The translations under genes and the position numbers were made by a program. 38,428 bases of DNA from Candidatus Blautia equi. GTDB lineage: Bacteria; Bacillota; Clostridia; Lachnospirales; Lachnospiraceae. How positions within the stretch are numbered: position 1 is the stretch's first letter; every line of letters starts with the position of its first letter. Below are positions 11,924-17,593 of this stretch, piece after piece. Location: the NCBI GenBank assembly GCA_018064695.1, contig JAGHUU010000118.1:1-38428 (forward strand). Reading direction: 5' to 3'. The notes beneath the pieces are model-generated. The model saw only the letters and a program-made list of their open reading frames with translations. It was not told where the DNA came from and did not search any database.

Positions 11924-12931
11924 TTATTCACCGAAATCGGCAGCTACTTTTTTCAGCATCTCGCGGATTGGCAGATGGTATGGGCATCTGGTCTCGCAGG
12001 CACCGCACTCTACGCAGGCGGAAGCTTTTACAGGCAGGGTGCTGTAGCGGTCTTTTGCCCAGTTTCCAAGGTCGTATCTCTGGAGATAGCCTGCAAACAG
12101 GAATGCGCCAGGAATGTTAATGCCTACGGTACAAGGTGCACAGTAGTTGCATCTGCGGCAGAAGTTTGTTCCAAGTGCGTCACGCACCTTCTGGAAACCT
12201 GATTTCTCCTCCTCGGTGAAAGCGGAGGTGTCGCAGCATGCTGCAATATTCTGCTCGATCTCTTTCTCCTCAGCCATGCCTGGAATTACTACGCTGACTG
12301 CCGGGTTTGCACAGATATAGCGAAGTGCCAGAGTGGCATCCTCAATGGCACCGCCTGCCAGTGGTTTCATGGCTACAAAGCCGATGTTCTTCTCTGCACA
12401 TTTTTTAATGAGTTCCTCGCCCTGGCTCTCCACGATGTTGTATGGGAACATGATGGTCTCCACCCAGTCCAGAGAAAGGGCTTTTTCAAAGACCTCTGTG
12501 GAATGTGCGGTGATACCGATGTGGCCGATCTTTCCGGCTGCTTTCGCTTCCATAAGGGCCTCAAGCGCGCCGCCCTCTGCCAGTACCTGGTTCAGCTGAT
12601 CCATGCTTGGGTTGTGAACCTGATAGAGGTCAATGTAGTTGGTGCGAAGATTGCCAAGACTGATGTCAATGTCCTTAGCCATAGCCTCTTTGGTGCGGGA
12701 CATACTCTTGGTTGCAAGAATAAATTTGTCACGGATGCCCTCCAGCGCATAGCCCAGGTAGGACTCGCTGACGGTATAGCCTCTGGCTGTGTCAATATAG
12801 TTCACGCCCTCTTCCATCAGGCGCTGCATAAGCTTCTTTGTTCCCTCAGCATCGATCTTCTGAATCGGAATTCCACCAAATCCAATTCTGGAGATCTGAA
12901 GTCCGGTCTTTCCAAGCGTAGTATACTGCAT
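11924..12931 (-). CDS. aldo/keto reductase with C-terminal 4Fe-4S ferredoxin-type domain
   Basis: MQYTTLGKTGLQISRIGFGGIPIQ, YIDTARGY; CRRCNYCAPC and CVECGACETRCPYHLPI clusters. Confidence 0.92.
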   Translation of the reverse strand: MQYTTLGKTGLQISRIGFGGIPIQKIDAEGTKKLMQRLMEEGVNYIDTARGYTVSESYLGYALEGIRDKFILATKSMSRTKEAMAKDIDISLGNLRTNYIDLYQVHNPSMDQLNQVLAEGGALEALMEAKAAGKIGHIGITAHSTEVFEKALSLDWVETIMFPYNIVESQGEELIKKCAEKNIGFVAMKPLAGGAIEDATLALRYICANPAVSVVIPGMAEEKEIEQNIAACCDTSAFTEEEKSGFQKVRDALGTNFCRRCNYCAPCTVGINIPGAFLFAGYLQRYDLGNWAKDRYSTLPVKASACVECGACETRCPYHLPIREMLKKVAADFGE

Positions 12932-13119
12932 ATATTTTTCCTCGCGTTTCTTTTACTTTCCGCTCCGCGCACTCTCCACGATGCACATCACTTCCTCCAT
13001 GCTATCACGATTTTGGTTGTTTTACAATTTATTCTTTACCTATAATCGAAGCAGGTCAGCGGTGAAAGGAAGCGGACTTAACATCCCTTTGCTATATTTC
13101 CGGCATCCTGGCGGGGTTA

Positions 13120-13395
13120 TGCCATCGGAAAACGCAAAAACGCTTCTAGATGGCAGGGGCTTTGCCATCTGAATTGTTGGTTTCTTACTTGGATGGTACA
13201 TTTTCAGCTAGGTTTACCATCTATAATCAAATCTCATGAATCCAATGGCACGAAATTACCATCCGATAGCGCGTAGGCTTCTTCCAATGGCAAAAATCAG
13301 CAGAAAATTGCCATCCGATTTCCAAAAAGATTTTCAGATGGCAACCCCCCGCTAAACACTACCATCTGACAACGGAGAAGCATGTGTGGATGGCA
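13120..13395. repeat. array of six ~36-bp inverted-repeat units TRCCATC-N~22-GATGGYA
   Basis: Units at 13120-13155, 13163-13198, 13215-13250, 13257-13292, 13309-13343, 13360-13395; spacers 7,16,6,16,16 nt. Confidence 0.85.
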
Positions 13396-13421
13396 AAGCA
13401 ATCGCACCGCGCTGAACGATA

Positions 13422-13450
13422 ATGACAATTCAGAGACAAAACTGTATAAT
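13422..13450 (+). promoter_or_regulatory. candidate promoter of the kinase-NfeD-FloA operon
   Basis: ATGACA/TGACAA near 13422, TATAAT at 13445-13450, ~16-17-bp spacing. Confidence 0.55.
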
Positions 13451-13515
13451 ACAGATAATACCTGTTTTTTTCGCAAAGAGAATGCGATATCTTTACACTA
13501 CGAGGTGAAGACAAG

Positions 13516-14250
13516 ATGACAACGAGTTTGATCCTGAGTTTGCTGGCGGCGGTGGTGCTTACGCTTTGTATTCTGGTGATTCTGATCCAGTATCTGAGAG
13601 TGAAGCGCAGCTACGAGGCAATACTGACAAGCTATGAAAATCTGGAACAACTGAACAGTACCATGCGGGCCCAGCGGCACGACTATCTGAACCATCTGCA
13701 GGTGGTATACGGGTTGGTGGAGCTGGAAGAGTATGAGGAGCTTAGAAGCTATCTGGAACCTGTCTACAAGGACATGATGAAGACCGGAAAAGCGCTGAAG
13801 ACTTCCATACCTGCCTTAAACGCCCTCATCAGCGCCAAGAGCGCCGAGGCAGAGCGGGCGGACATCGATATGTATATCGAGACGAAATCAGATCTTAAAG
13901 ATCTTGGCATTCCGGACTGGGAGCTGTGCAAGGTTCTTTCCAACATCATCGACAACGGCATCACGGCCCTGGAAGAGAGGGAATCGGATAAGAAAATGTG
14001 GGTGGACATCCACGAGACAGAAGATTCCTACCGGTTTGAGATCGCCAATAACGGACCGATGATCGATGAAAAATGGAAGAAAGAGATTTTCAGGCAGGGT
14101 GTAACAAGTAAAAAAGAACAGGGACATGGAATGGGACTCTTTATTGTAAGCAATGTCTTAAAAGCCCATCTGGGCGAGCTGGAGCTGGAATCCGGTGAGG
14201 CAGAGACCAGATTTCGCATTACATTTCCCAAAAACAGAAAGGAGCTGTAA
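13516..14250 (+). CDS. GHKL sensor histidine kinase (Spo0B-like dimerisation helix, single N-terminal TM)
   Basis: RAQRHDYLNHLQVVYGL (H-box), NIIDNGITALE (N-box), GHGMGLFIVSNVLKAH (G-box). Confidence 0.88.
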   Translation: MTTSLILSLLAAVVLTLCILVILIQYLRVKRSYEAILTSYENLEQLNSTMRAQRHDYLNHLQVVYGLVELEEYEELRSYLEPVYKDMMKTGKALKTSIPALNALISAKSAEAERADIDMYIETKSDLKDLGIPDWELCKVLSNIIDNGITALEERESDKKMWVDIHETEDSYRFEIANNGPMIDEKWKKEIFRQGVTSKKEQGHGMGLFIVSNVLKAHLGELELESGEAETRFRITFPKNRKEL

Positions 14251-14724
14251 ATGGAGACAATCACTATTATAGGAATCGTTCTCCTGCTGGCGGGCTTTGT
14301 CCTGGCCGGGTGTGAGATGATCCTTCCGGGCTTCGGTGTTCCGGGAGTTTTATCCCTCATCAGTTTCACAGCAGGAATCTATCTGAGCGCAGCCTCCCTG
14401 GAGCAGGCACTTATGATGATCGTAGTGATCCTGGTGATCCTGGCGGTGATGCTGACCATTGTGATCGTATTTTTCCATTCCTCCAAGGTAAAATCCCCCA
14501 TCAAACTGGAGGAGGAGCTTGGAAAAAAAGAGAGCTTTATCAATTCCGAGGACCTGGCTTACCTGATCGGCAAAAAGGGCATCACCACTTCCGTATTAAG
14601 ACCAACCGGCAAGTGCGAGATCGACGGTGTTCTTCTGGAGGTCAGAAGCGAGCAGGGATTCATTGAGATCGGAAAAGAAGTTACGGTAATTAAAATTCAG
14701 GGAAATACTATTTTGGTAAGATAA
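14251..14724 (+). CDS. NfeD family membrane protein
   Basis: TM helices + C-terminal OB-like GKKGITTSVLRPTGKCEIDGVLLEVRSEQGFIEIGKEVTVIKIQGNTILVR; adjacent to floA. Confidence 0.85.
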   Translation: METITIIGIVLLLAGFVLAGCEMILPGFGVPGVLSLISFTAGIYLSAASLEQALMMIVVILVILAVMLTIVIVFFHSSKVKSPIKLEEELGKKESFINSEDLAYLIGKKGITTSVLRPTGKCEIDGVLLEVRSEQGFIEIGKEVTVIKIQGNTILVR

Positions 14725-14742
14725 TAACAGGAGGTTTTGATT

Positions 14743-15717
14743 ATGATTTGGGAAACAGCACTTATCGGCGTTATCTTAGTAGCATTGATCATCTTTTTTG
14801 CAACCGTTCCGGTGGGACTTTGGATCTCCGCCACAGCAGCAGGAATCAAGATCAGCATCTTCAACCTGATCGGTATGAAGCTCCGCCGTGTAAAACCTGA
14901 GAAGATCGTTATGGCTCTTATAAAAGCTACAAAAGCCGGCCTGAACGTGAAGGTAAACCAGCTTGAGGCCCATTATCTGGCAGGCGGCGATGTGGACAGC
15001 GTGGTAAACGCACTGATCGCAGCTGAGAGAGCAGGCATTGCCCTTTCCTTTGAGAAAACATCCGCCATCGACCTGGCAGGACGTGACGTATTTGAAGCAG
15101 TAAAAATGAGTGTAACCCCTAAAGTTATTGAGACAGACCGCGTATCCGCAGTGGCAAAGGATGGTATTGAGCTTCTGGTAAAAGCCCGTGTGACTGTACG
15201 TACCAATATTGAGAGACTCATCGGTGGTGCCGGTGAGGAGACTGTCATTGCCCGTATCGGTGAGGGTATTGTAACAACGGTAGGTTCCTCTGAGACCCAC
15301 AGCGCAGTTCTGGAGAACCCGGATAACATCTCCAAGCTGATCCTGGAAAAAGGTCTGGATGCAGGTACCGCATACGAGATCATCTCCGTGGACATTGCAG
15401 ATATCGACGTAGGACGAAACGTAGGCGCAAACCTGTTAAGCCTGCAGGCTGAGGCTGAGAAAGTCATTGCTCAGGCAAAAGCTGAGGAGAGACGTGCAAT
15501 GGCAGTTGCTGTTGAGCAGGAGATGAGAGCAGAGGTAGTAAAAGCCGAGGCAGAGGTTCCGCGTGCCATGGCAGAGGCCCTTAGAAACGGAAACGTAGGC
15601 GTTATGGACTACTATAAACTGCAGAACGTGGCAGCCGACACCGAGATGAAGAAGAACATCGGTTCCGGCGCATCCGCTTACGCTGATACCAAGGGCAGAG
15701 AGAAAAGCATTCAGTAA
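14743..15717 (+). CDS. floA: flotillin-like protein FloA
   Basis: [69 protein letters not shown]. Confidence 0.93.
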
Positions 15718-15770
15718 TACGATCCTTAGAGATCGGAAAAAGAAACTTTCAGCAGAGGAAGGCGCGATTC

Positions 15771-16511
15771 ATGATCAAGGTAATGCTTGTTGAGGATGAG
15801 GAAAAGATCAGGCATATTTTAAAGAAGATGATCGAAAAAGTGGAAGGCTTTCAGGTGACGGCAGAGGCAGAGTCCTTTGCCGCAGCCATCTCTCAGTTTT
15901 CGGTGGAGAGGCCTGATGTGGTTTTTGTGGATGTGGACTTAAACGGCGACAGCGGACTGGAGTGTGCCAAAGTGATGGTAAATCTGGATCCAAAGTTAAA
16001 AGTGATCTTTGCCACCGCCCACAGCGAATATATGGCCAACGCCTTTGAGATCTATGCCTTTGATTATTTGGTGAAGCCTTTTGATATGGAGCGTCTCCAC
16101 AGAACGCTTCGAAGGATCCAGGCAGCAGGCGATGTGCAGGACTCCGGGCGCGCAGCAGTGGTTTCTCACTCTGACAGGGAAAAAGAAAACGGAAGACTGA
16201 TGATCAAAGGAAAAGAGCAGATCCTCTTTGTGGATAAAAAGGATATTGCATTTGTGGAGCATGCGGAGAGCACTACATTGGTGGTGACGCAGAAAGAGAC
16301 CTATAAGTGCAGCACCTCCTTATCCGAACTGGAGCAGAAGCTCACCGGCGATTTCATGCGCAGCCACCGATCCTACATCATCAACACCTCCATGATCTCC
16401 AAAATGGAGCCTTACGGAAGATGGACCTATGTGGTACATTTTAACGGAATCAAAGAAACCGCCCTCATCACTTCCCAGAAGTATGAGGAGCTGAAGAATC
16501 TCTATTTATAA
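15771..16511 (+). CDS. LytTR family response regulator
   Basis: Receiver MIKVMLVEDEEKIR...VFVDVDLNGDSGLE...DYLVKPF; LytTR FMRSHRSYIINTSMISKM. Confidence 0.92.
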   Translation: MIKVMLVEDEEKIRHILKKMIEKVEGFQVTAEAESFAAAISQFSVERPDVVFVDVDLNGDSGLECAKVMVNLDPKLKVIFATAHSEYMANAFEIYAFDYLVKPFDMERLHRTLRRIQAAGDVQDSGRAAVVSHSDREKENGRLMIKGKEQILFVDKKDIAFVEHAESTTLVVTQKETYKCSTSLSELEQKLTGDFMRSHRSYIINTSMISKMEPYGRWTYVVHFNGIKETALITSQKYEELKNLYL

Positions 16512-16639: not shown

Positions 16640-17593
16640 ATGGAAAAATGGAAGGATGGTATATGGGGACTTGTGACAGCGGATGCACTGGGTGTTCCGG
16701 TGGAGTTCAGAAGCCGCATGCAGATGGAGAAAGATTCTGTTATAGATATGAGAGAGTACGGCACCCATTCTCAGCCAAAAGGAACCTGGTCGGATGACAG
16801 CAGCATGGTTTTTGCAGCCATGGATAGTATCATCCGGAAGAAAGGTATTGATTATAAGGACATCATGACAGCCTTTCAGAGCTGGGTGTACGATGCGGAA
16901 TATACCCCACACGGTACCGTTTTTGATATAGGAAATGCCACTTTTCAGGCGATCCGCAGATTTAAGAGCGGGGATACTCCCCTCAGCTGCGGCGGCATTG
17001 AGGAGCGCGATAACGGAAACGGCTCTCTTATGAGGATCCTTCCGGTATGTCTGTACCTCATTGACAGGGAGAAGAAGTGCTGCATGTCCGCAGATGAAGA
17101 GGTGCAGACCATTCACAACGCATCTGCCCTGACCCACGCGCATCTGAGAAGCATGATGGGCTGCGGCCTGTTTTACTTCTGCGTGAAGGCTCTTGTGGAG
17201 GAAAAAGAAAATGTAAAAGAGCGACTGCAGCGCGGTCTTGATGCGGGCTTCTCTTATTATCGCAGAGATTTCAGAAATTATAAGGAGCTTTCCAACTACG
17301 ACAGACTCACAGATCTGGACAAATTTGAGAAGACCCCTGCGGGAGAGATCAGAGGCAGCGGATATGTGGTGGCAACCCTGGAGGCAGCCATCTGGTGCCT
17401 GCTCACCACAGGTTCTTATAAAGAAGCCACACTGAAGGCTGTGAATCTTGGAGAGGATACCGATACGGTAGGCGCGGTGACCGGTGCCCTGGCAGGCTTA
17501 TACTATGGAGCGGAGGACATTCCGGCAGAGTGGATCGAGGTCCTTGCCAGAAAAGAATGGATTCAGGGACTGATCGATCAGATCATAGAATAG
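16640..17593 (+). CDS. ADP-ribosylglycohydrolase family protein
   Basis: GLVTADALGVPVEFRSR, GTWSDDSSMVFAAMDSI, NGNGSLMRILPV, LGEDTDTVGAVTGALAGLYYG. Confidence 0.9.
   Translation: MEKWKDGIWGLVTADALGVPVEFRSRMQMEKDSVIDMREYGTHSQPKGTWSDDSSMVFAAMDSIIRKKGIDYKDIMTAFQSWVYDAEYTPHGTVFDIGNATFQAIRRFKSGDTPLSCGGIEERDNGNGSLMRILPVCLYLIDREKKCCMSADEEVQTIHNASALTHAHLRSMMGCGLFYFCVKALVEEKENVKERLQRGLDAGFSYYRRDFRNYKELSNYDRLTDLDKFEKTPAGEIRGSGYVVATLEAAIWCLLTTGSYKEATLKAVNLGEDTDTVGAVTGALAGLYYGAEDIPAEWIEVLARKEWIQGLIDQIIE

Follow-up and report, generated by a model that had tools for sequence, protein, structure and literature searches.

Helically spaced arrays of alternating half-sites between genes in Candidatus Blautia equi and other bacterial genomes

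Upstream of a co-directional gene set that includes a sensor kinase and flotillin genes, Candidatus Blautia equi carries a compact run of short inverted repeats, which raises the question of whether these repeats are operators dedicated to that operon or members of a family that is spread more widely over the chromosome. The locus lies in a stretch of 38,428 bp (contig JAGHUU010000118.1 of assembly GCA_018064695.1), hereafter the window, and the genome it belongs to (G000) is a MAG of 2.1 Mb and 82% completeness.

Anatomy and setting of the array

The array occupies 276 bp (13120-13395) of the intergenic space 12932-13515, which is bordered by an aldo/keto reductase gene on one side and by the kinase-NfeD-FloA-LytTR set on the other. 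It consists of 12 half-sites, TRCCATY in forward and RATGGYA in reverse orientation, which alternate strictly. The features are as follows.

13120..13395, no strand: whole array, six 35-36-bp inverted-repeat units with 12 half-sites, unit period 42-43 or 51-52 bp
13120..13155, no strand: unit 1, TGCCATC-N22-GATGGCA
13163..13198, no strand: unit 2, TGCCATC-N22-GATGGTA
13215..13250, no strand: unit 3, TACCATC-N22-AATGGCA
13257..13292, no strand: unit 4, TACCATC-N22-AATGGCA
13309..13343, no strand: unit 5, TGCCATC-N21-GATGGCA
13360..13395, no strand: unit 6, TACCATC-N22-GATGGCA
11924..12931, minus strand: aldo/keto reductase with 4Fe-4S domain, divergent, context only
13422..13450, plus strand: predicted sigma-70-type promoter, ATGACA-N17-TATAAT, a consensus match only (11/12), 27 bp past the array
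13516..14250, plus strand: SPOB_a/HATPase_c sensor kinase, context only, link to the array unsupported
14251-14724: NfeD, follows the kinase, context only
14737-15717: FloA, follows NfeD, context only
15771-16511: LytTR response regulator, follows FloA, context only

The 7-mer half-sites start at 13120, 13149, 13163, 13192, 13215, 13244, 13257, 13286, 13309, 13337, 13360, and 13389, alternately forward and reverse, with steps of 29, 14, 29, 23, 29, 13, 29, 23, 28, 23, and 29 bp, and the unit periods correspond to 4 or 5 helical turns. An alternating chain with these spacings reaches 12 half-sites in the real window, compared to a longest chain of 2 in 500 first-order Markov shuffles. The strict alternation described in an earlier note on this DNA is thus borne out, as are its unit-start differences of 43, 52, 42, 52, and 51 bp, which were reproduced exactly, its view that the array is not coding, and its placing of the array end ~27 bp ahead of a candidate -35. 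Other details needed adjustment: the within-unit distance of 28 bp (27 in unit 5) describes the same geometry counted from an 8-mer and becomes 29 (28 in unit 5) between 7-mers, and the proposed half-site consensus is right overall, except that two of the six right halves read AATGGCA and not GATGG, the left half of unit 3 reads TACCATCTAT, and position 8 can be G. The arms are indeed conserved, but the interiors, which the note had taken as not conserved, are not wholly unrelated, with a mean pairwise match of 8.9/22 versus 6.7 ± 0.44 in shuffles. The conserved part of a unit comprises the 7-bp word plus a weak T at -1 and a weak A at +9, and the interiors are variable. As separate observations on this region, the genes at 13516-16511 form an AgrC/AgrA-like pair enclosing flotillin genes, and an ADP-ribosylglycohydrolase gene (16640-17593) directly follows the LytTR regulator.

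Distribution, alternative words, and conservation

A genome-wide motif search, which had been suggested as a check, recovered two further arrays in the window's own genome, i.e., three in all with no fourth found, again with unit periods of 42-43 or 51-52 bp; the remaining single matches were isolated.

C19:9613-9868: second array, with a short gene on one side and an amidohydrolase gene on the other
C138:1437-1745: third array, flanked by convergent genes, of which one encodes an HD-domain protein

Genus mates held isolated units only, with no array, and a motif-free search of 400 kb from three of them yielded no array either. Orthologues of the HD gene beside the C138 array (29 loci) had no array of any word next to them; the other neighbour differs there, and hence no clean empty site is available. 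In a sample of 392 genomes from the window's order, the TRCCATC-type pattern was found only in the window's own genome, which indicates that the arrays are sporadic.

More widely, 85,462 species genomes were scanned (records of or near the window's genome omitted) with the first half-site fixed as TGCCATC, a setting that misses species with other words. RUG427 (uncultured Clostridiales) and UMB00020 ("uncultured eubacterium 1-6"), both of them MAGs, had many arrays, and the rest of the scan gave isolated matches plus a few unrelated repeats. The two-half-site pattern was counted 119 times in RUG427 and 130 times in UMB00020, compared to 0 for a reversed-pattern control, and the alternating chains contained up to 38 half-sites with a spacing of 29/23 or 29/22; within both genomes, interiors are shared between arrays. 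Arrays are carried also by G194, a relative of UMB00020, which was the only exception among the ~97 relatives searched around each of the two genomes. RUG427 and UMB00020 have overlapping neighbour lists, which share nothing with those drawn for the window's genome, so we suspect that the two belong to a different order. Viral contigs gave single chance-like matches without chains of this kind, plasmids gave no match to the array pattern, and a literature search on such arrays found nothing relevant. Scan hits in Thermoanaerobaculia (L057, L104, and L106) and Minicystis (L101) were set aside as ordinary palindromic or tandem repeats with other spacing; the repeat in the Thermoanaerobaculia MAG is a different one, the palindrome TGCCATCGATGGCA, which occurs in clusters with a spacing of 21-22 bp. 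Two details at individual loci may be recorded: an array of UMB00020 (L051, 5951-6810) contains additional AATGGCA sites at a distance of 10 bp past a half-site, which matches one turn of the helix, and an array of RUG427 adjoins a gene (L062, 1964-2887) whose product, read by eye, resembles a cytosine-5 DNA methyltransferase with an N-terminal ribbon-helix-helix-like stretch.

The geometry is not tied to one word. Sampled relatives were searched without a preset motif, for any 5-mer that recurs at alternating intervals, with ~20 kb covered per genome for most, so that absence of arrays there means little. This search found intergenic arrays of the same architecture, with a period of ~53 bp, built from other words: GCATGC in G088 (intervals 30/23; 71 and 73 triple matches genome-wide), TACGTR in G116 (32/21; one array only), and inverted RACCGTAY in G118 (32/21; one array only). 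GCATGC triple matches were absent from 144 relatives, and chains of at least six did not occur (0) in 1.6 Mb of first-order shuffled DNA. Of two GCATGC arrays on G088:C1 (L240, 9-359 and 8205-8685), one adjoins a dnaN-like gene and the other is flanked by mnmE-like and mnmG-like genes; the replication origin may be close. A common frame, xRCNNNY, was aligned by eye across the words and not retained, as four words are too few to claim it. Also rejected as unrelated, their periods or origins being different, were an AT-rich minisatellite (L273), a His-rich coding repeat (L236), an in-frame protein repeat (L313, 4534-4742; a perfect 51-bp repeat in the gene of a small Ala/Gly/Cys-rich protein), and a tandem 48-bp repeat of the GC-rich hairpin GGGCTGCCTGCGGCAGCCC (L294, 3045-3155), which is unlike the arrays described here.

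Conservation could be compared cleanly between orthologues at a single locus, where L196 (G194) and L203 (UMB00020) are syntenic, with flanks of 81-89% DNA identity, an array in the same intergenic space, and different unit numbers. Half-sites defined in one species mismatch in the other at 2.6-3.2% of positions, compared to 21-27% in the rest of the array; at this locus the sign of the difference is not in doubt. Over all BLAST-anchored comparisons the figures were 3-9% and 29-36%, and the size of this difference is an upper estimate because the anchoring favours conserved words.

Spacing and base composition follow a shared pattern as well. In four genomes, half-sites on the same strand recur at discrete distances of 42-43, 51-53, and 103-104 bp, i.e., at whole helical turns with tolerance of added turns, as would be expected of a helically phased cooperative binding array. 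The AT fraction of the central four bases was higher in the long than in the short interval in all six data sets, which represent four words (0.75/0.47, 0.75/0.24, 0.69/0.40, 0.80/0.52, 1.00/0.62, and 1.00/0.25), and 26 bp (2.5 turns) separate the two kinds of centre. As the units of any one genome are related, and partly tandem or dispersed duplicates, counts are not independent and the support for the AT pattern comes from agreement among genomes. The arrays are always intergenic, between convergent (~10), tandem (~9), or divergent (4) genes when loci away from contig edges are counted. Flanking genes, named from reading the translations, vary from array to array in every genome (e.g., AraC genes, transporters, mnmE/mnmG-like genes, and the vicinity of a dnaN-like gene), and across seven genomes no shared neighbour recurred beyond common transporters and regulators.

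A putative array-binding protein and the rival explanations

The window array is probably a member of a dispersed, species-specific intergenic family that a putative protein binds cooperatively, with a chromosomal and not an operon role. Each array consists of short, strictly alternating words; measured between outer edges, the long interval spans ~35 bp and the short interval ~17 bp, a geometry that makes the repeat five helical turns (in the window array also four). We hypothesize that the half-sites are occupied by a putative protein, probably dimeric or oligomeric, that recognises their sequence specifically and builds up along the array in a cooperative manner, and that the DNA may be bent one way, with AT-rich centres in the long intervals and GC-richer centres in the short intervals 2.5 turns off. 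Such an assembly would organise or mark the chromosome (e.g., as a domain boundary or in supercoil management, segregation, or silencing) and would not act as a switch for one operon. The quantised spacings, and half-sites conserved over a diverged background, agree with the earlier suggestion that a dimeric or oligomerising regulator binds helically phased sites. On the DNA side, the anatomy of the arrays, their dispersal and intergenic location, the differential conservation of half-sites and spacing, and the use of other words at the same geometry in other species are observed; the protein, its cooperativity, the bending, and the chromosomal role are inferred. If a single protein family reads these arrays, gut Clostridia would possess a chromosome-organising system that is invisible to gene-based annotation and whose recognition words differ among related species at constant spacing. 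The arrays also offer handles: a pull-down can use the word, a phasing test can use the spacing, and residues that set specificity can be mapped by comparing sister species that have other words. More tentatively, bacteria might have a class of satellite-like arrays, not described before, in which the geometry (alternating sites, a 51-53-bp repeat, AT-rich and GC-richer dyads) is kept across taxa while the word switches by species. This would look like co-evolution between a fast-evolving DNA-binding protein and its sites on the chromosome, in a bacterial counterpart of centromeric or heterochromatic satellites.

The chief rival, which we regard as unlikely, is that the arrays are clusters of REPIN/BIME-like miniature mobile repeats, whose half-sites would be ends recognised by a transposase and whose arrays would arise from repeated insertion or duplication. 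Much of the pattern agrees with this: the arrays are dispersed, extragenic, and species-specific, with conserved inverted ends and variable middles, as REPINs combine conserved inverted ends with a spacer (PMC3116915); interiors common to several arrays occur in RUG427 and UMB00020; unit number changes between species; and several arrays lie between unidirectional or convergent genes, where REPs are mainly located (PMC3733652). However, both intervals vary by no more than ±1 bp over dozens of units, changes in spacing come as whole helical turns gained or lost, half-sites are still conserved at an old syntenic locus, and the words have 7 bp instead of the 16 bp of palindromic REPs. The Y1 transposase domain PF01797 was not found (0 copies) in two array-bearing genomes, those of the window and RUG427, both incomplete MAGs; counts that pool RAYT and IS200 gave 2-5 copies in UMB00020, G194, G088, G116, and G118 (incomplete genomes) and 2-14 copies in genus mates of the window's genome where no array was found.

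It is quite improbable that the array comprises operators for a regulator that serves the kinase-NfeD-FloA-LytTR operon alone, whether the LytTR protein, to whose system the earlier note saw a possible relation, or another. The array does stop 27 bp upstream of a good predicted promoter for this operon, but the two other arrays of the same genome lie beside unrelated genes, one of them between convergent genes, and arrays elsewhere occur without such an operon. Moreover, a kinase match was found in four of the 60 genus genomes, the window's own included, and no array lies upstream of the kinase homologues (47-49% identity) in the other three, an absence that the note itself had named as telling against the link and that also removes orthology of the operon as an explanation. 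LytTR sites are direct repeats and not alternating inverted half-sites, and on sequence grounds LytTR control of the window array is not supported. With no recurring neighbour family and with convergent, tandem, and divergent settings all represented, a dedicated promoter regulator appears unlikely in general.

The note's other suggestion was a chain of RNA hairpins; that transcripts of the arrays function in this form, with a 7-bp stem and a loop of ~22 nt, has very little probability in our judgement. The plus strand folds better than shuffles (z = -4.0), and two positions among the inner pairs of RUG427 have a slight excess of matching bases (p ~0.03-0.07), but the R/Y pair is broken on the plus strand in three of the six window units, partner half-sites have little or no consistent pairing covariation, no curated RNA family in Rfam matches the arrays, and helical quantisation of the spacers has no RNA rationale. 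A neutral minisatellite that expanded through slippage or unequal crossing-over and binds no factor would account for unit numbers that vary between species and for recent tandem duplication in some arrays, but is highly improbable given that interiors diverge while half-sites stay conserved and that one period and geometry have been reached with different words.

Comparison with known systems

The putative protein-bound arrays resemble several known systems in part. CRISPR loci likewise have a conserved word at regular distances, with intervals that vary; here the word has 7 bp, its orientation alternates, there are two interval lengths, and direct repeats of ~23-40 bp with unique spacers are lacking, which upholds the earlier conclusion that the array is not CRISPR-like. 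The sequence TGCCATCTGAA is superficially similar to the neisserial DNA uptake sequence, but the core of the present sites is only TRCCATC, and in their compact arrays they alternate strictly and keep a fixed spacing. Transcription-factor operators in cooperative arrays and partition-site repeats also consist of helix-phased short words in strict orientation, whereas the present arrays occupy many chromosomal loci, without a fixed neighbour gene, and are not promoter-specific. There is also a likeness to REP/BIME and REPIN elements (PMC3733652, PMC3116915), with which the present arrays share many dispersed extragenic copies, inverted and clustered organisation, species-specific sequence, and frequent location between convergent or unidirectional genes. 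They differ in that the words are of 6-8 bp and non-palindromic or short palindromic, in place of 16-60-bp palindromes or an imperfect palindromic REP core of ~20-60 bp, that both intervals are fixed to helical turns, and that the GTAG/CGTC end tag is absent, by inspection, from the TRCCATC/GATGGYA units. We file the arrays as a variant of dispersed extragenic inverted-repeat arrays.
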